NCBI GenBank assembly: GCA_943789205.1 | Contig: CALSTG010000001.1 | Coordinates: 1,354,435 to 1,418,434 of the forward strand | Length of the DNA: 64,000 bases | Direction: 5' to 3' | DNA from: an uncultured Flavobacteriales bacterium | GTDB lineage: Bacteria > Bacteroidota > Bacteroidia > Flavobacteriales_D > Crocinitomicaceae | In this document: positions 53,327 through 63,929 of the stretch, one piece after another | Position numbering within the stretch: the first letter of the stretch is position 1 | Layout of the letters: each line of letters opens with the position of its first letter | Notes under the pieces: model-generated | Seen by the model: only the letters and a program-made list of their open reading frames with translations | Told to the model about the DNA's origin: nothing | Databases searched by the model: none | Program-made: the position numbers and the translations under genes

Positions 53327-56041
53327 TTAACGAATTAAATTCACGTGTCCTGATAAGGTTTTTCGTTCATCCGTATCTGGCATTTTATACATAATCTTCC
53401 ATACATAAGTACCTTCTTGAGCTTTTACTCCGCCAGTTCCATAGCTCCCATCCCATCCATAATCTGGTTGATGTGATTCAAAAATGATTTGGCCCCATCG
53501 GTTGTATATCCATAGGGTGTAATTATATGGGTCAATAGAAGGCGAAAGAACGGGTGTAAAAATCTGGTTGTATTGGTCTTCATCGGGTGTGAAAGAATTC
53601 GGAATGAATATGATAGGTGCTTCTTTGCATTCTATAAAAAGGGATGTCGTATCAGAGCACCCCTGAACTGTACTAGCTATTAATGTTGCTAAATATCCAT
53701 AGGCATTGTTCTCATATTGGTATTGAGGGTTTTCTTCATTTGAGAAGGCTTCATCTCCAAAATCCCAAGCAAAGTTTACTGCTGATATTGATGATGCATT
53801 ATAAAATTGAACCCATTGGTTACTTAGTGTAATTACTGCGGGTGCTGCTGTGAAATTCGCAGATGGTTGACTATCGAGACACATTAGATTTTCAATTGAA
53901 ATAGAAGATGAACATCCTTGTTCTGTGCTCGTTAAACTCACATCGTAACATCCTGCCGTTTCAAAGGTCATCATTTGCTCACAGGTATTAAACATATTAC
54001 CGTCGCTAAGCGTCCACGAACAGCTCGTGTTTTGATTTGCGAAAGGATTTGTAAAAGTAATATCAATTGGAACACAGCCTTCATTGGCGCTCACTTCAAT
54101 GTCAATTTGTGGATTCAAGATAACCATACAATTTAGTGTTGCTAGTGAGTCACATCCAGTAACCAAACTTTGGAGACTAGCTGTTTGAAGCCCTGCTTCA
54201 TTAATTAAAAGGCCATTCCAATTAAAAGGAAGCTCAGATGCGCAAACGGTTGTATCTGTATCACTAGTCAAGGTTGGGTTGATCAATAGATTTAGGTTAA
54301 CAATAGAGTCACAACCGGTAAGGATGCTTTCAATGATAGTTGAGTAGGAATCAGATAGCGTTAATTGGTTGCCATTCCATTCGAAAGGAAGTTCGCTGTC
54401 GCATATTGTAATGTTTGTGGTGCTTGATAAAGTTAGATTTACTGTTAAGTTTAAGCTCGTTATTGAATCACAACCAGTAATGCTGCTAAAAAGCGTTGTC
54501 GTATGAGTGCCTGCATTTGAAATTTCCAATCCATTCCAAAATAAGGGCAGTTCTGTTTCACAAACTGTTGAGTCAGTCGAACTAAAAAGAGTTGGATTAA
54601 CGTTTAGGTTTAATGTGACCGTGGAATCACAGCCTGAAACCACACTGTTAAGAATTGTACTTTGAGTATCTGTTCCGGTAAATATTAAGCCATTCCAATT
54701 TAGGGGAAGTTCAGATTCACAAATAATAGAATCCGTCGTGCTTTCGAGAGAAGGAAGGACGATAACATTCAAATTTGCAGCTGAATCACAACCTACACTG
54801 TTTGTTAGTGTTGCCATAAAGTCGCCAGTTTCATTAATTGAAATGCCATTCCAAAGAAAAGGTAATTCCGTGTCGCATACCACAGTATCATTAAAGCTCG
54901 TTGTTGCTGTATTCACAGTTAGGTTTAAGGTTGCTACGGAGTCGCAATTATTAACACTTAATAGGGATAGTGTTTCCGTCGTGGAGGTATTCAACACCAA
55001 ATCATTCCAAAGGAATGGAAGTTCATTTTCACAGATGGCTATATTTTCTGTGCTATTTAAATCCGGGAGGATGGTAACATTAATGGTGTCATAATCAGGA
55101 CAGGCACCTGAATTCGCCGTAATCAGTGTTTCAACAATAAATTGCTGAAAAATAGGTTGACTTGTATTGTTTTCGATGGTTGTTGTAGGATTAGAAATAT
55201 TAGGGTCATCAAGTAGTGTTGGATTGTCCCATAGATAGCTGTTATTGGGGTCATCCGTAGTGCCAATTTGTACGGGTTCACCGCTGCAAACGGAAATGTC
55301 AGCCCCTGCGTTCGCTTCTGGGAGGTCTGCAAAAATTTGAACATTCTTGATCGAATGTTTATCGTTTAAACCTCCAGTACTTGCCGTGAAACCCATATAT
55401 CCTGCAAAATTTACCGGAAAAAAGGCATTAATGTAAAGCACTCCATTTACAGTTAGGGTAATGGTTCCGTTATTGTAGGTTATTGTCGCGGAATTATAAT
55501 TGTTGGAGCGGATAAAATTCAAGTTTCCGCCTACATTATTAATAAAGACCAGGCCAGATGAAATAGCAGGATTTTCATTGTAACCTACACCGCTGTATAT
55601 GCCTAGGCCTGGATTGGCGGCACCCCAATTGTTATAAGTATCAAAAATAACTTTAATACCATTTGCGGTAGAAGGCACACCTACGCCACCTCCTGACACA
55701 AATCCTACAGGAGGAACATCAAGAAAACAAAAAGCAATCCCATCTGCGCCGTTACCTTCCCAAATTCTAAATTCAAAGTCCACGTGCCATTGATTACACG
55801 TAGATAAGTCTAACGGCTCTTGAAAGAAAACGGCTCCACTGCTCGTATTGGTTTGGTTGGTCAGAATGATTTCATCGCTATCATTATTGGCATCTCCAAC
55901 AGTATTTCCAACGTATGCTGCTCCGGTCAAATTCCACCCTGAGGTATTAACTGGAGTTCCTTGAAGTTCCGCAAAAACCAATTGCCCGAACACATCATGT
56001 ATTAGAATGACAAAAGACATTACAAGCAGTAATCTGGACAT
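53327..56041 (-). CDS. Secreted L-type lectin / six-repeat / PKD protein with T9SS type B C-terminal domain
   Basis: 904 residues. Signal peptide ends at VFGQL. L-type lectin-like domain about 25-240 (HVDFEFRIWEGNGADGIAFCF, VIFDTYNNWG), an Ig-like region about 240-320, then six tandem repeats of about 46 residues (about 325-640). Each repeat has CxxELPxxWNG and, later, GCDSxxxLNLxV. A PKD domain follows near 725-800 (FAWDFGDEAFSNEENPQYQY), and the end is a CHU_C-type sorting domain (IFIPNSFTPDEDQYNQIF, WIYNRWGQIIFE, WDGSYG, GTYVWKIMY). A polysaccharide-binding surface role is likely from the lectin domain; the repeat ligand is unknown. Confidence 0.88.
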   Translation of the reverse strand: MSRLLLVMSFVILIHDVFGQLVFAELQGTPVNTSGWNLTGAAYVGNTVGDANNDSDEIILTNQTNTSSGAVFFQEPLDLSTCNQWHVDFEFRIWEGNGADGIAFCFLDVPPVGFVSGGGVGVPSTANGIKVIFDTYNNWGAANPGLGIYSGVGYNENPAISSGLVFINNVGGNLNFIRSNNYNSATITYNNGTITLTVNGVLYINAFFPVNFAGYMGFTASTGGLNDKHSIKNVQIFADLPEANAGADISVCSGEPVQIGTTDDPNNSYLWDNPTLLDDPNISNPTTTIENNTSQPIFQQFIVETLITANSGACPDYDTINVTILPDLNSTENIAICENELPFLWNDLVLNTSTTETLSLLSVNNCDSVATLNLTVNTATTSFNDTVVCDTELPFLWNGISINETGDFMATLTNSVGCDSAANLNVIVLPSLESTTDSIICESELPLNWNGLIFTGTDTQSTILNSVVSGCDSTVTLNLNVNPTLFSSTDSTVCETELPLFWNGLEISNAGTHTTTLFSSITGCDSITSLNLTVNLTLSSTTNITICDSELPFEWNGNQLTLSDSYSTIIESILTGCDSIVNLNLLINPTLTSDTDTTVCASELPFNWNGLLINEAGLQTASLQSLVTGCDSLATLNCMVILNPQIDIEVSANEGCVPIDITFTNPFANQNTSCSWTLSDGNMFNTCEQMMTFETAGCYDVSLTSTEQGCSSSISIENLMCLDSQPSANFTAAPAVITLSNQWVQFYNASSISAVNFAWDFGDEAFSNEENPQYQYENNAYGYLATLIASTVQGCSDTTSLFIECKEAPIIFIPNSFTPDEDQYNQIFTPVLSPSIDPYNYTLWIYNRWGQIIFESHQPDYGWDGSYGTGGVKAQEGTYVWKIMYKMPDTDERKTLSGHVNLIR
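54118..55065 (-). repeat. Six tandem ~138-base coding repeats
   Basis: Encode the CxxELPxxWNG ... GCDS units of the lectin protein. They are conserved at the protein level and diverged at the DNA level, which points to old duplications. Each unit holds two Cys, so one disulfide per unit is likely. Confidence 0.8.
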
Positions 56042-56067: not shown

Positions 56068-56212
56068 CAGACAAAGTTTTTAGGAAATAGTTGCCTAAAG
56101 TTTTTTTTATGTCATAAAGACACTTAGTCAAGGTCAGAACTTTTTATTCGTTTGCAGCACCATGTTTTACGGAAAACTGATTTTTGTCATTTTTTTTAAA
56201 TATCAATCGAAA

Positions 56213-56220
56213 TACATTTG
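56213..56220 (+). promoter_or_regulatory. -7 box of the ilv operon
   Basis: TACATTTG, exact TAnnTTTG, 8 bases before the leader-peptide ATG at 56229. The nearest upstream TTTG (56183-56186) is 26 bases away, longer than usual, so the -33 is uncertain. Confidence 0.5.
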
Positions 56221-56228
56221 TATTCAAA

Positions 56229-56285
56229 ATGATGAATTACACTACTATAAAGGAGATTATTAAAATTATTGCTGAACGCAACTGA
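56229..56285 (+). CDS. Isoleucine-rich leader peptide of the ilv operon
   Basis: 18 codons, MMNYTTIKEIIKIIAERN, then TGA at 56283-56285. Five of the eight residues from position 7 to 14 are isoleucine (ATA, ATT x4); there are no leucine or valine codons. The Ile codons span 56247-56270. The stop codon lies two bases before the antiterminator strand. It is too short to be a functional protein and its position, composition and stop fit a sensor of charged tRNA-Ile. An alternative start at the second ATG (56232) gives 17 codons. Confidence 0.8.
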   Translation: MMNYTTIKEIIKIIAERN

Positions 56286-56287
56286 TC

Positions 56288-56338
56288 TTTGGATGGTATA
56301 AAAAATATTGTAAAGCTATCCAAAAGGATGGCTTTTTT
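56288..56338 (+). promoter_or_regulatory. Transcription attenuator of the ilv operon (antiterminator/terminator pair)
   Basis: Terminator: stem of ten pairs between 56312-56321 (AAAGCTATCC) and 56326-56335 (GGATGGCTTT) with an AAAA loop and T-run 56333-56338. Antiterminator: TTTGGATGG at 56288-56296 can pair with CTATCCAAA at 56316-56324 (nine pairs, one wobble), which removes the 5' arm of the terminator. The two folds are mutually exclusive. A ribosome stalled on the Ile codons leaves 56288-56296 free, so transcription continues. A ribosome reaching the stop at 56283 covers it, so the terminator forms. Confidence 0.8.
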
Positions 56339-56362
56339 AGTTTAAAATTTAAAAGCAGAATT

Positions 56363-57253
56363 ATGTATTATTCAGACGATACTATCGTATATCTAGATGG
56401 CAAATGGACAAAAGCAAAAGATGCAAGCCTGACACTATACAATCAATCTTTACATTATGGAAACGCCGTATTTGAAGGTATTCGATCTTATGAAACTGAA
56501 GATGGCACTTTGATTTTTAAAGCAAAAGAGCATTACGATAGGCTTCATTTTTCGGCACAAAAGATGCAAATCCCACTTGCTTTATCAAGTGAGACGTTAA
56601 CTAAATTATCCTATGAGCTACTTAAAAAAAACAATTTAACAAATGCATATATACGACCACTAATCTATCCTGGGGAAAACATGAGTCTTGTTTCAGGTGA
56701 TGACTCACACGTTTTATTATGCGCATGGGAATGGGGAAGATATTTGGGAGACAGTTTATTGCGCTTAATGACTTCCTCTTTTCAACGTCCAAATCCTAAA
56801 GCGTGTTTTGTTGAAGCAAAAGTTACGGGTCACTATACCAATTCAATTCTTGCCACAACCGAAGCAAAACAAGAGGGCTTTGATGAAGCTTTGCTGTTGG
56901 ATTCTAATGGTTTTGTAGCTGAAGGACCTGGCGCTAATTTCTTCTTTGAAAAGGATGAGGTTTTATATACACCTAAGCTTGGAAATATTCTTCCTGGCAT
57001 TACAAGGCAAACAATTTTTGAACTGGCTAATGAAATGGGTATAGAGGTTCGAGAAAGCCAATTTAAAGTAGAAGATGTTTATGCGGCTGATGGTGCCTTT
57101 TTTACGGGAACAGCTGCTGAGGTAGCAGGTATAGAAAGTCTTGATGGTAAGAATTTTGGCTTACAATGGTCGGATACAATTGGCTATGAATTGTCAAGAG
57201 CATACAATAATCGAGTACAAAAAAAAGAGTATAAAAATTTTGAATTAGTTTAA
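56363..57253 (+). CDS. ilvE: Branched-chain amino acid aminotransferase
   Basis: 296 residues, fold type IV PLP enzyme. [13 protein letters not shown] near residue 32 and the PLP-binding Lys in [14 protein letters not shown] near 155, with EGPGANFFF and GNILPGITR later. It transfers the amino group in the last step of Ile, Val and Leu synthesis. First gene of the six-gene operon, behind the Ile attenuator. Confidence 0.95.
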
Positions 57254-57254
57254 T

Positions 57255-58931
57255 ATGAAACTCAATAAATACAGTCAGCGAGTAACTCAAGATGATTCCC
57301 AACCGGCAGCTCAAGCAATGCTTCATGCTATAGGTCTAAGTGAGGAGGATTTTTCAAAACCATTTGTTGGGATTGCGAGTACTGGATATGAGGGAAATCC
57401 TTGTAATATGCATCTTAATGAATTAGCTAAGCTTGTCAAGAAAGGAACCCTTCAAGAAGATTTAGTTGGATTAATTTTTAATACAATAGGCGTGAGTGAC
57501 GGTATTTCAATGGGAACTCCGGGTATGCGTTTTTCGCTTCCTTCTCGGGAGATCATTGCAGATTCGATGGAGACAGTTGTAGAGGGAATGTCATACGATG
57601 CTTTAGCAACAGTTGTTGGCTGTGATAAAAATATGCCTGGTGCATTAATCGCGATGCTTCGCGTGAATAGACCAAGTGTCTTATTATACGGAGGTACCAT
57701 TTCTTCTGGCTGTCATGAAGGTAAGAAACTTGATGTTGTATCTGCTTTCGAGGCGTGGGGACAAAAAAATGCAGGCAATATTGAAGAGAGAGAATATAAG
57801 TCCATCATCAAAAAAGCATGTCCAGGTGCTGGTGCATGTGGAGGAATGTATACGGCCAATACTATGGCAGCGGCAATAGAGGCTTTAGGAATGTCCCTGC
57901 CCTTTAACTCCTCTAACCCTGCTTTAAGTGATGCAAAGAAGAATGAAAGTGTTGCAGTAGGAAGAGCACTTCGTTTACTAATAGAAAAAGATATTAAGCC
58001 AAGTGATATTGTTACAAAGAAAGCTCTTGAAAACGCAATACGCTTAGTTACTGTGTTGGGTGGATCTACAAATGCAGTATTGCATTTTTTAGCTATAGCG
58101 TCAGCAGCAAAAATATCATTTACCCTTGATGATTTCCAGAGGATTTCAGACAGTACACCATTCTTGGCAGATCTAAAACCAAGTGGAAGGTATTTGATGG
58201 AGGATTTACATAATGTCGGAGGTGTTCCGGCTGTTTTAAAGTATATGTTAGGTGAAGACATGCTTCACGGAGATTGTTTAACCGTGACAGGAAAAACTTT
58301 GGCTGAAAACTTAGCTTGCGTACCTTCTTTAACCGAAGGACAGGATGTCATTCTACCTATAACAAAACCTATCAAAGACTCCGGACATATTCGAATCCTA
58401 AAGGGGAACCTTTCTCCAACCGGAGGAGTAGCAAAAATCACAGGAAAGGAAGGATTAATATTTACTGGAAAAGCAAAGGTGTTTGATTCAGAATATGATG
58501 CTAATGATGGTATAAGAAAGGGTGAAGTTGTAAAAGGAGATGTTGTTGTCATTCGTTATGAAGGTCCCAAGGGAGGCCCTGGAATGCCTGAGATGCTTAA
58601 GCCGACAGCTGCTATTATTGGTGCTGGTCTCGGTAATGATGTGGCATTAATAACGGACGGTCGTTTTTCAGGCGGCACACACGGTTTTGTCGTTGGACAT
58701 ATATCACCAGAGGCACAAGAAGGAGGGCCTATCGCATTTGTAAAACAAGGTGATGAGATTACAATTGACGCTGTTAAAAATACCATCACACTAAACATTT
58801 CCACAGAAGAAATGGCGTTAAGAAAAACTACGTGGATAGCACCACCTCTTAAGGTTGGGAAAGGTTCACTTTATAAATATGCCAAGCTCGTTTCACCTGC
58901 ATCTGAGGGATGTGTAACTGATAATTTCTAG
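57255..58931 (+). CDS. ilvD: Dihydroxy-acid dehydratase
   Basis: 558 residues. The iron-sulfur ligand cysteines are visible in [17 protein letters not shown] and [12 protein letters not shown]. The C-terminal motif is [15 protein letters not shown]. It dehydrates dihydroxy acids to 2-oxo acids in Ile and Val synthesis. Starts 1 base after the ilvE stop. Confidence 0.97.
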
Positions 58932-58935
58932 TAAT

Positions 58936-60669
58936 ATGGACGCGCTTAAAAAAGTACAACAACCGCAAGTATCAACTCAAAAAACAATGAGCGGAGCTCA
59001 AGCCGTTGTTCAATCCTTAATTAAGGAAGGAGTAGATCTCATTTTTGGGTATCCAGGTGGAGCAATAATGCCAGTGTATGATGCTTTGTATGATGTAGAA
59101 GATGAATTGAAACACATTTTGGTACGACATGAACAAGGCGCAACTCACGCAGCACAGGGTTATGCCAGAGCTTCCGGAAAAGTAGGAGTATGTATTGCAA
59201 CATCTGGCCCCGGTGCAACCAATTTAATTACAGGAATCGCAGATGCTCAGATAGACTCAACACCAATGGTATGTATCACTGGACAAGTTGCAAGTGGGCT
59301 ATTAGGATCTGATGCCTTTCAGGAAACAGATGTCATAGGTATTTCAATGCCTGTTACAAAGTGGAATTATCAGGTAACAAGAGCCGAGGAAATTCCAGAC
59401 GCCCTAGCTAAAGCATTTTACATTGCGAGATCTGGTAAGCCAGGTCCCGTTTTAGTCGATATTACAAAGGATGCCCAATTTGGAAGCTTAACTTTCAATT
59501 ATAATCCTTTTAAGGGAATGCGAAGCTATGTACCTCGTCCAAGAGTAGATTTAAGCAAAGTTAAAGCTGCTGCTGCACTTATAAATAATGCAAAACGTCC
59601 GTTGGTTCTTTTTGGTCAAGGGATTATACTTTCAGAGGCTGAGTCTGAGTTTCAGACATTTATTGAAAAGGCAGAATTGCCATCTGCATGGACAATCATG
59701 GGGCTTTCAGCACTTGACACAGATCATTATTTAAACGTTGGAATGCTTGGAATGCATGGGAATTATGCTCCAAATAAATTAACAAATGAATGTGATGTTC
59801 TAATAGCAATAGGTATGCGCTTTGACGATCGTATAACAGGTGACTTAAGTCGCTATGCCACACAAGCAAAAGTTATTCATCTCGAAATTGACCCAGCGGA
59901 GGTTGATAAAAATGTTAAAACAGATGTGGCTATTCTAGGAGACGCCAAAGAAAGTTTATTAGCCCTTACTGAATGGATTAAGCCAAACAATCATAGAGTC
60001 TGGCTTGATGAATTTCGAAAACTTGAATTTGAGGAATACGAGGAAGTCATCAAGGAAGAGTTGAATCCGAGTGTAGATGAATTAAGTATGGGAGAGGTGA
60101 TACGCTCAATAAATGATCAAACTGCGGGAGATGCCATTATTGTAACGGATGTTGGACAACATCAAATGGTTACTTGTCGTTATGCTCAATTCAAAAACAG
60201 TACTAAATCTATGATTACAAGCGGAGGTTTAGGTACGATGGGTTTCTGTTTACCTGCGGCTATTGGCGCTAAAATAGCCAAGCCTCAAAAACAAGTTATT
60301 GGTATAATTGGTGATGGTGGTTTTCAAATGACCTTGCAGGAGTTAGGTACGATTTTTCAAACTAAAACCCCTGTAAAGATTGTTGTTCTGAATAATGAAT
60401 TCTTGGGTATGGTTCGTCAATGGCAAGAACTCTTTTTTGAAAAAAGATATGCATCAACGACTATGGTTAATCCAGATTTTCAACAAATAGTTTCCGGATA
60501 TGGTATTGAGACAAGAAAAGTTACTGAACGTAAAGATCTCAATGATGCGGTTAGTAAAATGCTTGCTCATGATGGTGCTTTCTTTTTAGAGGTGCGGGTA
60601 GCAAAAGAGAACAATGTATTTCCTATGGTTCCTACTGGTGCATCGGTATCAGAAATACGACTTAAATAA
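58936..60669 (+). CDS. ilvB: Acetolactate synthase large (catalytic) subunit
   Basis: 577 residues. Thiamine diphosphate enzyme with the catalytic Glu in VRHEQGATHAAQGYARA, an FAD/central domain, and the ThDP-Mg motif GDGGFQMTLQEL ... NN. It condenses pyruvate with pyruvate or 2-oxobutyrate. Starts 4 bases after ilvD and is paired with the regulatory subunit next to it. Confidence 0.97.
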   Translation: MDALKKVQQPQVSTQKTMSGAQAVVQSLIKEGVDLIFGYPGGAIMPVYDALYDVEDELKHILVRHEQGATHAAQGYARASGKVGVCIATSGPGATNLITGIADAQIDSTPMVCITGQVASGLLGSDAFQETDVIGISMPVTKWNYQVTRAEEIPDALAKAFYIARSGKPGPVLVDITKDAQFGSLTFNYNPFKGMRSYVPRPRVDLSKVKAAAALINNAKRPLVLFGQGIILSEAESEFQTFIEKAELPSAWTIMGLSALDTDHYLNVGMLGMHGNYAPNKLTNECDVLIAIGMRFDDRITGDLSRYATQAKVIHLEIDPAEVDKNVKTDVAILGDAKESLLALTEWIKPNNHRVWLDEFRKLEFEEYEEVIKEELNPSVDELSMGEVIRSINDQTAGDAIIVTDVGQHQMVTCRYAQFKNSTKSMITSGGLGTMGFCLPAAIGAKIAKPQKQVIGIIGDGGFQMTLQELGTIFQTKTPVKIVVLNNEFLGMVRQWQELFFEKRYASTTMVNPDFQQIVSGYGIETRKVTERKDLNDAVSKMLAHDGAFFLEVRVAKENNVFPMVPTGASVSEIRLK

Positions 60670-60675
60670 TTAGCA

Positions 60676-61206
60676 ATGAAAAAAAGATATACAATATCCG
60701 TCTTTACTGAGGACATGGTAGGTCTTCTAAATAGAGTGACCATTGTCTTTACAAGAAGAAAAATAAACATTGAAAGTATAGCTGCTTCAGATAGTGAGGT
60801 ACAAAATATTCATCGCTATACAATTGTAATTAACGAGACAGAAGACCTTGTTAAGAAAGTAACACTTCAGTTAGACAAGCAGGTTGAGGTAATTAAAGCT
60901 GTATATCATTTAGACGAAGAGATCATCTATCAAGAGATTGCCTTATTCAAAGTTCCAACAAATATCTTAATGCAGGGAGGTGAAGCCGAGCACATAGTTC
61001 GCTCTCATCACGCGCGAGTATTAAGTGTTGAGTCCGAATTTACGGTGATTGAAAAAACAGGTCATAAAGAAGAAACACAGCACCTATTTGATGAACTAGC
61101 ACCTTATGGAATATTAGAGTTTGTGAGGTCAGGAAGAGTCGCGATTACCAAACCAATGCGCACCTTGACTTCCATTGTAAATGAATTAGAAAACACCTAT
61201 AAATAA
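60676..61206 (+). CDS. ilvN: Acetolactate synthase small (regulatory) subunit
   Basis: 176 residues. An N-terminal ACT domain (about 3-75: [15 protein letters not shown], then [15 protein letters not shown]) and a C-terminal regulatory domain (about 85-170). It confers valine feedback inhibition on the large subunit. Follows ilvB by 6 bases. Confidence 0.95.
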
Positions 61207-61210
61207 GATT

Positions 61211-62689
61211 ATGAGCAATTATTTTAACACCTTAACAGAAACACAAAAATTAATACAGCTTGGAAAATGTGATTTCCTAGAAACATCAGATTTCATAAAC
61301 GGACTTCAAGTTTTACAGGACAAAAAAATTGTCATTATAGGGTGTGGTTCTCAAGGGTTGAACCAGGGTCTGAACATGCGTGATTCGGGATTAGACGTTT
61401 CATATGCATTAAGAGATGCTGCAATTAAAGACAAGAGAGCTTCTTATCAAAATGCAGTTTCCAATGGTTTTAAGGTTGGTACCTATGCCGCCTTAATACC
61501 TAGTGCTGATTTAGTCATTAATCTTACACCGGACAAACAACATTCAGCTGTGGTGAATCGAGCAATACCGCTGATGAAGCTTGGTTCAACTTTAGCTTAT
61601 TCTCATGGCTTTAACATTGTTGAGGAAGGCATCAAGGTACGAGAGGATATTACGGTTATACTCATGGCACCAAAGTCTCCTGGTTCTGAAGTTAGAGAAG
61701 AATACAAAAGAGGATTTGGCGTGCCAACACTAATTGCAGTCCATCCAGAAAATGATCCAAATGCGACAGGATTTGAATGGGCAAAGGCATATGCGTATGC
61801 AACAGGTGGGCATCGCGCAGGGGTTTTACATTCTTCCTTTGTTGCTGAGGTGAAATCAGATTTGATGGGCGAACAAACCATACTTTGTGGTATGCTTCAA
61901 TCAGGTTCTATTTTAGCTTTTGATAAGATGATCGAACAGGGTGTAACACCTAGCTATGCAGCTCAGCTTATTCAATACGGGTGGGAAGCAATTTCTGAAG
62001 AACTCAAGAAAGGCGGGCTTACTCAAATGATTTCTCGAGTTTCAGATGAAAACAAGGTCAAGGTTTACGCGCTCTCGGAAGATTTAAAAACAATTATGCG
62101 CCCGTTGTTTGAAAAACATATGAATCGCATTATGTCTGGAAAATTCTCTTCTGAAATGATGGAGGATTGGACTAATGATGATGTCAACCTGTTGGCATGG
62201 AGAGCTCAAACGCTTGAGACTGAATTCGAAAAAACCGAAGCGTCTGATGCGAGCTTATACGACGACCAGAACTATTTTGATCATGGAACCTTGCTCATGG
62301 CTTTTATAAAGTCAGGCGTTGAATTGGCCTTTGAGACTATGGTAAATGCTGGAATAAAAGAAGAATCAGCTTATTACGAGTCTTTGCATGAGCTGCCTTT
62401 AATTGCCAATACGGTAGCAAGAAAAAAGCTTTACGAGATGAATAGAATTATTTCTGATACCGCGGAATACGGTTGTTATTTATTTGATCAAGAATGTCAA
62501 CCGTTATTGAAAGAATTTGTATTGAACTTAGATGCAGGTCTTGTAGGTAATGCTTTTCAACCTGACGGTGACGAGTTGTCACATTTAGCCCATGTCAATG
62601 AATCCATTCAAGGACATCCTATTGAAAAAGTAGGTCTGACCTTGAGAGCCGCAATGGCGCTAGAGAAACAAGAGTTGAGTCATGTATAA
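61211..62689 (+). CDS. ilvC: Ketol-acid reductoisomerase, class II (long form)
   Basis: 492 residues, about the length of the E. coli enzyme. NADPH motif [17 protein letters not shown], then [11 protein letters not shown], and two knotted C-terminal domains with GELAFETM-type [17 protein letters not shown]. It performs the isomerisation and reduction after acetolactate synthase. Overlaps ilvA by 8 bases. Confidence 0.97.
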
Positions 62690-63929
62690 AGTTGACCTTT
62701 CTGCTGTTGAGGCAGCAGCAAAGCGACTTGAAAATGTTGCGCTTTGTTCACCCCTTGGTTTGAATGAAACACAGTCTCGTAAATATGGTGCTTCGGTTTA
62801 TTTCAAACGTGAAGATTTACAGCAGGTTCGATCCTATAAGATTAGAGGAGCGTATAATAAAATTTCAACCATTCGCTCAGCTGATTTACAGAAAGGAGTC
62901 GTTTGTGCAAGTGCAGGGAATCATGCCCAAGGTGTTGCGTATTCTTGCGCGCGAAAAAAGGTCAAAGGAATGATTTTTATGCCGACACCTACGCCTAAAC
63001 AAAAGATTGCACAGGTAAAAATGTTTGGCGGTGATTATGTTGAAGTGATTTTAGTAGGAGATACTTTTGATGATGCCTCTCAACAGGCAAGAGATTATTG
63101 TAAAGCCAATGCAATGCTTTTCGTTCATCCCTTTGATGATGAAAAAGTGATTGAAGGTCAAGCAACAATTGGTCTTGAGATTTTGGCACAATCGAAGGTA
63201 GGTATAGATTATCTTTTTTTACCGGTTGGCGGCGGCGGCGTGGCCTCAGGAGTTTCAAGTGTTTTTAAAGAGCTTTCACCAAAAACAAAAATAATAGGTG
63301 TCGAACCCGAAGGTGCACCATCGATGTCTACCTCAATGGCAAACGGAGTAAATACAACCATAGATGAGGTTGAAAAATTTGTGGATGGAGCTTCGGTTAA
63401 AAGAGTTGGTGATTTGAATTTTAATATTTGTAAGAAAAACCTGACGCAAATGGCCACCGTTCATGAAGGTAAGATTTGTCAGACCATATTGGATATGTAT
63501 AATAAAGACGCGATTGTTGTAGAGCCAGCAGGGGCAATGACCGTAGCTGTTCTTGACGATTACAGAGAAGAGATTAAAGGTAAGAATGTAGTCTGCTTAG
63601 TGAGTGGAAGTAATAATGACATTACCCGGACTGAAGAGATAAAAGAAAGGGCATTATTACATGCTGGAGTAAAACATTATTTTGTGGTACGCTTCCCTCA
63701 GCGCGCAGGTGCTTTGAAGGATTTTATAGAAAAAGTTTTAGGTCCGAAGGATGACATCACGCATTTTGAGTATTCCAAAAAGCAAAGCCGAGAAAATGCC
63801 CCAGCAGTAGTTGGTATTGAGTTGGGCAGTTCAAGTGAATTGGATGCGCTAATAGAAAGAATGAAAGCGTTTAAATTCTATGGGGAATACCTGAATGACA
63901 AGCCAGACCTATTTCAATTTCTAGTATAA
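62682..63929 (+). CDS. ilvA: Threonine deaminase (threonine ammonia-lyase)
   Basis: 415 residues. PLP-binding Lys in [13 protein letters not shown] near residue 52, the phosphate-binding loop [10 protein letters not shown] near 180, and one C-terminal ACT-like regulatory domain (about 325-415, [20 protein letters not shown]). That is shorter than the E. coli enzyme (514), which has two ACT-like units. It makes 2-oxobutyrate from threonine, the committed step of Ile synthesis. Last gene of the operon; its 8-base overlap with ilvC implies coupling. Confidence 0.95.

Follow-up and report, generated by a model that had tools for sequence, protein, structure and literature searches.

The leader-peptide attenuators of the enterobacterial ilvGMEDA, his and trp operons are built from regulatory codons, a 1:2 protector hairpin, a 2:3 antiterminator and a 3:4 terminator, and the position of the ribosome decides which of these form. 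In the Bacteroidetes, attenuators were reportedly predicted by Vitreschak in 2004, and Lopatovskaya is said to have treated them in 2010. A reading of the present DNA made from the sequence alone (the sequence-only reading) held that coupled attenuation is little described in Bacteroidota. However, work on Flavobacterium psychrophilum published in 2021 already gave strong indications that amino-acid operons are preceded by leader-peptide attenuators (PMC9723704). The conserved 5' elements given in that paper include those of pheA and hisG, and the words "ilv" and "isoleucine" are absent from its main text. Short ORFs reminiscent of leader peptides have been noted in Bacteroides thetaiotaomicron (PMC7366714). 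A 2010 screen described leader-peptide systems as shown only in Proteobacteria and Actinobacteria, and itself found one in Firmicutes (PMC2965389). In the open literature that we searched, we found no account of an ilv leader-peptide attenuator family of Bacteroidota, nor of two or three such ilv attenuators in series, and for ilv the remark of the sequence-only reading can be retained.

The locus analyzed here resembles the enterobacterial ilvGMEDA, his and trp leaders in having a leader ORF with regulatory codons and the 1:2, 2:3 and 3:4 pairings; at the sequence level, the comparison was made through Rfam. It differs from them in using Ile codons only, in its short leader of about 110 nt and in a near-leaderless start, and its one 1:2 hairpin is simpler than the enterobacterial ilv fold. 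With the attenuators inferred in Flavobacterium psychrophilum (PMC9723704) it shares the phylum and the position upstream of amino-acid biosynthesis operons. The actinobacterial ilvB leaders (PMC1262725) likewise combine a short ORF containing Ile, Val and Leu codons with a terminator before ilv genes. There, codon runs and terminator overlap, and how these leaders act is described as unclear, whereas our locus has 26 nt between the stop codon and the terminator arm and possesses each of the three helices. Bacteroid-trp RNA (RF01692; PMC2864571), a Bacteroidetes cis-regulatory RNA named after trp, gave no match to our locus at the gathering score.

The ilv leader and its codons

The window is the whole 64,000-nt stretch of DNA that was analyzed, and its features are given on the plus strand unless stated otherwise. 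It comes from a genome close to Crocinitomicaceae MAGs, the nearest named match being MOX_bin63, with an IlvE that is 95% identical. The ORF list, with gene names assigned by recognition, places an ilvE-ilvD-ilvB-ilvN-ilvC-ilvA operon at 56363-63929, with ilvE as its first gene (56363-57253). An intrinsic terminator at 56312-56338 ends 24 nt before the start of ilvE. The upstream neighbour gene (53327-56041, minus strand) is divergent from the ilv operon, so the terminator cannot serve it, and the idea that the terminator is that gene's own was rejected.

For comparison, we aligned the window with seven relatives that were judged by eye to be of its type (alignment A1, 8 sequences); L047, which has a single attenuator and also carries GGATGG, was put with the other class. 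A promoter box, TACATTTG, is located at 56213-56220 and was named by TAnnTTTG, the -7 consensus of Bacteroidota. In the surveyed regions, 48 of 103 first attenuators and 2 of 31 later ones carry TAnnTTTG no more than 60 nt upstream of their leader, compared with 151 of 2060 random 60-nt windows. Further upstream, the element TGATTTTTGTCATTTTTT (TGA-N6-TCA; 56178-56195) is conserved in A1 and lies exactly 35 nt from the start of the -7 box in 8/8 of these single-attenuator sequences. The corresponding pattern, TGATTTTTRTCATWTTTT, is present in 15 of 169 loci, which amount to 8 distinct sequences, the 8 of A1. Near -42 of the inferred transcription start, TGATTTTTGTCATTTTTT is a candidate activator site and may bind an activator of the CRP/FNR type. 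The exact string TGATTTTTRTCAT occurs five times in the genome (reversed control, 0), the other four occurrences being intragenic by eye.

The leader ORF, MMNYTTIKEIIKIIAERN followed by a stop codon (56229-56285, 18 codons), starts 8 nt past the -7 box, and no Shine-Dalgarno sequence is visible before it. Bacteroidota mostly initiate translation without such sequences. Five of the 18 codons specify Ile (ATA at 56247; ATT at 56256, 56259, 56265 and 56268), and none specifies Leu or Val. The four ATT codons, which we regard as the regulatory ones, stand in ATT ATT AAA ATT ATT (56256-56270). The stop codon TGA occupies 56283-56285 and is followed, after two bases, by the antiterminator strand TTTGGATGG. 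All elements listed in the sequence-only reading, namely the -7 box, the 18-codon leader with five Ile codons and no Leu or Val codon, and the stop two bases before TTTGGATGG, are therefore present in the sequence.

The window alone is less striking, and it is conservation that makes the case: 13 of 200 shuffles gave an ORF with an equal Ile count (for the longer, TTG-started reading, with six Ile), which is not significant. All eight A1 sequences, the window included, have an 18-codon leader ORF, with Ile-Ile at codons 13-14 in 8/8 and at codons 10-11 in 7/8. The variable columns of these ORFs are spread across the three codon positions (10, 9 and 9), so the peptide apart from its Ile residues seems unimportant. 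The ilv operon also makes valine, yet the window leader has no Val codon, which counts against an Ile attenuator. The use of Ile codons without Leu fits the gene content, since the only HMGL-like protein in the genome (63.8 bits, cut-off 29; genome 95% complete) looks, by eye, less like LeuA than like an HMG-CoA lyase; if the cell lacks LeuA, the absence of Leu codons from the leader would be accounted for.

Terminators before biosynthetic operons are commonly of the T-box, riboswitch or protein-controlled kinds, and such a sensor could act here with the short ORF being incidental. We regard this as very improbable, because neither the window nor 7 related loci contain an Rfam family at its gathering score and because the feature that returns from locus to locus is a fixed spacing between Ile codons and terminator. 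The families without a match at the gathering cut-off in these eight loci include the amino-acid leaders, T-box and Bacteroid-trp, and the best weak match in the leader was Phe_leader (22.5 bits against a cut-off of 55). A known riboswitch, T-box or Rfam leader was thus rejected. Short leader ORFs are easily overlooked, and Rfam gave no match for the window or the 7 related loci examined.

Alternative pairings and a predicted 1:2 protector hairpin

The terminator consists of a 10-pair stem with an AAAA loop, AAAGCTATCC.AAAA.GGATGGCTTT (56312-56335), and a run of six T at 56333-56338. Segment 2, the antiterminator strand TTTGGATGG (56288-56296), can form 9 pairs with segment 3, CTATCCAAA (56316-56324). 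Since CTATCCAAA overlaps the 5' arm and loop of the terminator, the antiterminator and the terminator are mutually exclusive, as the sequence-only reading had proposed. On A1, the terminator helix was paired in 80/80 cells, compared with 28-69% when slid, and the antiterminator helix in 93.1% of 72 cells, compared with 22-63% when slid. The window's antiterminator pairing was equalled by 5% of 40 shuffles, and the 133-nt stretch of the window folds with z = -3.5, with 1 of 200 shuffles as stable. No both-side changes were found in either helix within the two aligned classes where this was tested, because their sequences hardly vary. In the alignments of regions upstream of ilvE, the check suggested by the sequence-only reading, the Ile codons, the leader and the alternative pairing are conserved; the terminator and antiterminator pairs show no covariation within these close classes.

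A further hairpin, which the sequence-only reading had missed, was found in the predicted folds. Segment 1 (56244-56259, comprising 56244-56248 and 56252-56259) pairs with 56293-56297 and 56283-56290, respectively, and encloses an inner stem-loop at 56269-56281. The minimum-energy fold of the window leader is made up of this 1:2 hairpin and the terminator (-27 kcal/mol), and two sampled pairs of the hairpin are predicted at P = 0.99 in the window. The hairpin is predicted to bury most of the antiterminator strand. On A1, 97.1% of 136 cells were paired in the 1:2 structure, compared with 29-50% when it was slid by 1-3 columns. When folded singly, 7 of the 8 sequences gave the hairpin or nearly so, and L034 folded otherwise.

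Covariation of the 1:2 hairpin on A1 is thin. One pair changed on both sides (A-U to U-A and U-G, two cells); shuffles matched the number of cells in 16/500 cases and the number of such pairs in 223/500. The inner stem-loop is uninformative in this respect, since its 4 pairs are invariant in A1. We also aligned a sister class, A2, which represents the upstream attenuator of tandem loci (12 of 16 sequences; L006, L135, L035 and L047 were omitted owing to indels or other length). In A2, both-side changes were found in 3 of the 6 pairs of the inner stem of 1:2 and in 14 of 72 cells, a cell count that none of 500 shuffles reached; in 6 of the 12 sequences, however, the outermost of these pairs does not form. 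With a 1:2 hairpin that is predicted, kept in relatives and covarying in the sister class, the layout of the window corresponds to the classical 1:2 / 2:3 / 3:4 arrangement.

The sequence-only reading had assumed that no protector or pause hairpin is needed. In such a minimal attenuator, the ribosome at the stop codon alone would decide and untranslated RNA would read through. The placement of the stop codon 2 nt before the antiterminator strand does indicate that masking by the terminating ribosome belongs to the design, and the pre-terminator RNA of 72 of the 134 attenuators in our survey is less than one standard deviation more stable than shuffles (at least one standard deviation in only 62/134), so that a genuine 1:2 hairpin may be absent from some families. 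However, the hairpin is the predicted ground state in the window, is kept in its relatives and shows compensatory changes in the inner stem of the sister class. Across the 134 attenuators, moreover, the antiterminator strand was paired upstream with a mean of 0.73 in predicted folds, compared with 0.55 when the leader was shuffled, and the value was higher in 109/134. We therefore rejected the compact design without a protector on the fold, its conservation in A1 and the covariation in A2, and consider it improbable. We are less sure that every family has a 1:2 hairpin.

We conclude that the window very probably contains a classical ribosome-mediated transcription attenuator tuned to isoleucyl-tRNA. 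The elements, their conservation, the mutually exclusive pairings and the spacing are shown by the sequences, and from them we infer how the leader would be translated in the cell and where ribosome and RNA polymerase would halt or continue. Transcription would start a few bases before the near-leaderless leader ORF. In the absence of translation, the RNA is predicted to fold into the 1:2 hairpin and the 3:4 terminator and to stop near 56338, because the 1:2 hairpin sequesters the antiterminator strand. A ribosome that reaches the stop codon would cover segment 2, and the terminator would form. A ribosome waiting at the ATT codons would instead cover segment 1 and leave segment 2 free to pair with segment 3, and this 2:3 pairing would let RNA polymerase continue into ilvE-D-B-N-C-A.

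The spacing in the window agrees with this scheme. Counted from the first base of each codon, the antiterminator strand begins 20 nt downstream of the last Ile codon and 5 nt downstream of the stop codon. As a ribosome covers up to 12 nt downstream (PMC4833913), the strand would be free with the ribosome at the Ile codons and covered with the ribosome at the stop. In predicted folds of the nascent RNA with the ribosome at the Ile codons, the antiterminator hairpin reaches -10.8 to -11.6 kcal/mol while the terminator is still incomplete, whereas placing the ribosome at the stop gave no antiterminator hairpin. At equilibrium, the terminator is still predicted to be favoured when segment 1 is masked (P(2:3) 0.12-0.21), so the switch must be kinetic and decided during transcription.

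Leaders across related genomes

We surveyed regions of Bacteroidota found by searches with the window's IlvE, among them searches of its genus, family and order; these regions do not form an even sample of the phylum, and the survey knowingly included no Bacteroidales member. One IlvE search contributed 80 of 95 loci. We left out 15 paralogue loci (L016-L030) and L105, which was too short, and merged 149 regions into 118 distinct ones. A terminator within 160 nt of ilvE was found in 103/118 regions, and 15/118 had none by these criteria. A leader was called when it had at least 3 Ile codons, including Ile-Ile, in its last 16 codons and a stop 10-40 nt before the terminator arm. Such an Ile-rich leader precedes the terminator in 98/103 regions, compared with 77/2060 dinucleotide shuffles; the five failures were L007, L013, L094, L098 and L144, and for L007 other criteria did find a leader. 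A chance ORF in AT-rich DNA was rejected on this comparison. The organisms with such leaders include Flavobacterium, Ulvibacter, Aequorivita, Myroides, Pedobacter, Chitinophaga, Niastella, Lacibacter, Roseivirga and Fulvivirga. The central proposal of the sequence-only reading, an Ile-reading leader-peptide attenuator of the ilv operon, is supported by this recurrence and by the location of the antiterminator strand, which falls within the stretch that a ribosome halted on the stop codon would cover. The IlvE of the window was matched at E <= 1e-60 in 64 of 240 genomes of its family, in which isoleucine/valine synthesis may be patchy.

The leader sequences diverge widely among relatives. In this set, which was selected for Ile, Ile accounts for 705 of 2137 leader codons. 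Synonym choice was not a selection criterion, and it differs from that in the ilvE genes: Ile is written ATT in 567/705 cases in leaders versus 585/1274 in ilvE, and Val is written GTC in 111/235 versus 104/1487, counts that come from related sequences and are not independent. The codon choice of the leaders may be under selection for sensing.

In 118 of the 134 attenuators, 21-29 nt separate the leader stop from the terminator arm. We searched for the antiterminator strand from 25 nt before to 20 nt after the stop codon, and a few of the strands chosen are apparently mistaken (e.g., L036 at -190). In 71/134 attenuators, where about 7 are expected, a strand close to the stop outdoes at least 95% of 40 shuffles in its pairing with the terminator arm; the remaining 63/134 failed, including L002, the closest relative of the window, in which 0.55 of the shuffles were as good. 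Relative to the stop, the strand starts at a median of -1 (middle half -5 to +2; 134 attenuators). Many Chitinophaga-like loci have the strand 7-19 nt upstream of the stop, with the Ile run also shifted upstream. Between the last Ile-Ile codon and the strand there are 16 nt in the median (middle half 14-20), which would place the strand just outside a ribosome stalled at that codon. Codon and strand shift together (Spearman 0.51), but their spacing (variance 54.8) is no less variable than the strand's own position (53.7).

Probable attenuators in series

Two attenuators were found upstream of ilvE in 23 regions and three in 4 (27/118 in total), a few of the upstream ones being doubtful (e.g., L106 at -378). 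Examples are L036, L037, L038, L039, L041, L046, L070, L072, L078, L089 and L161. The attenuators of a series appear to share one promoter, since the -7 box is, by the counts given above, frequent before first attenuators and rare before later ones. The window has a single attenuator. In a quick tree of 95 of the 118 IlvE proteins, L035, which has two attenuators, is sister to five single-attenuator sequences including the window. This suits the loss of a second attenuator in the line of the window, the alternative being a gain in L035. The tandem arrangement in itself is not new, having been described for Salmonella mgtCBR (PMC3641672).

On balance, we lean slightly towards the view that Bacteroidota control their ilv operons through a widespread family of coupled attenuators, often arrayed in twos or threes after a single promoter, and that ribosomes enter the later leaders at internal starts lacking Shine-Dalgarno sequences. 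If this is true, the leading ribosome would closely trail RNA polymerase in Bacteroidota, and serial attenuators would multiply repression or make the response sharper. As a switch, the attenuator is ordinary, but its spread is informative, since attenuation of this kind works only if the first ribosome stays close to RNA polymerase. Found in flavobacteria, chitinophagas, pedobacters and relatives of cytophagas, these leaders would be simple reporters of transcription-translation coupling, and the serial arrays would be natural constructs for learning what a second or third attenuator adds.

Genes of other amino-acid pathways were also noted in the genome of the window. Homoserine dehydrogenase and prephenate dehydratase had no match in this genome (95% complete), and two chorismate-binding genes were found. 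At the start of its contig 1, a his leader that resembles the ilv leader in appearance, MYKSNLHHHHLHTCTQAMWK (HHHHLH), is followed by a terminator before hisG (L166, 120-245), which speaks for the attenuator reading of the ilv locus, and this his leader folds with z = -5.25.
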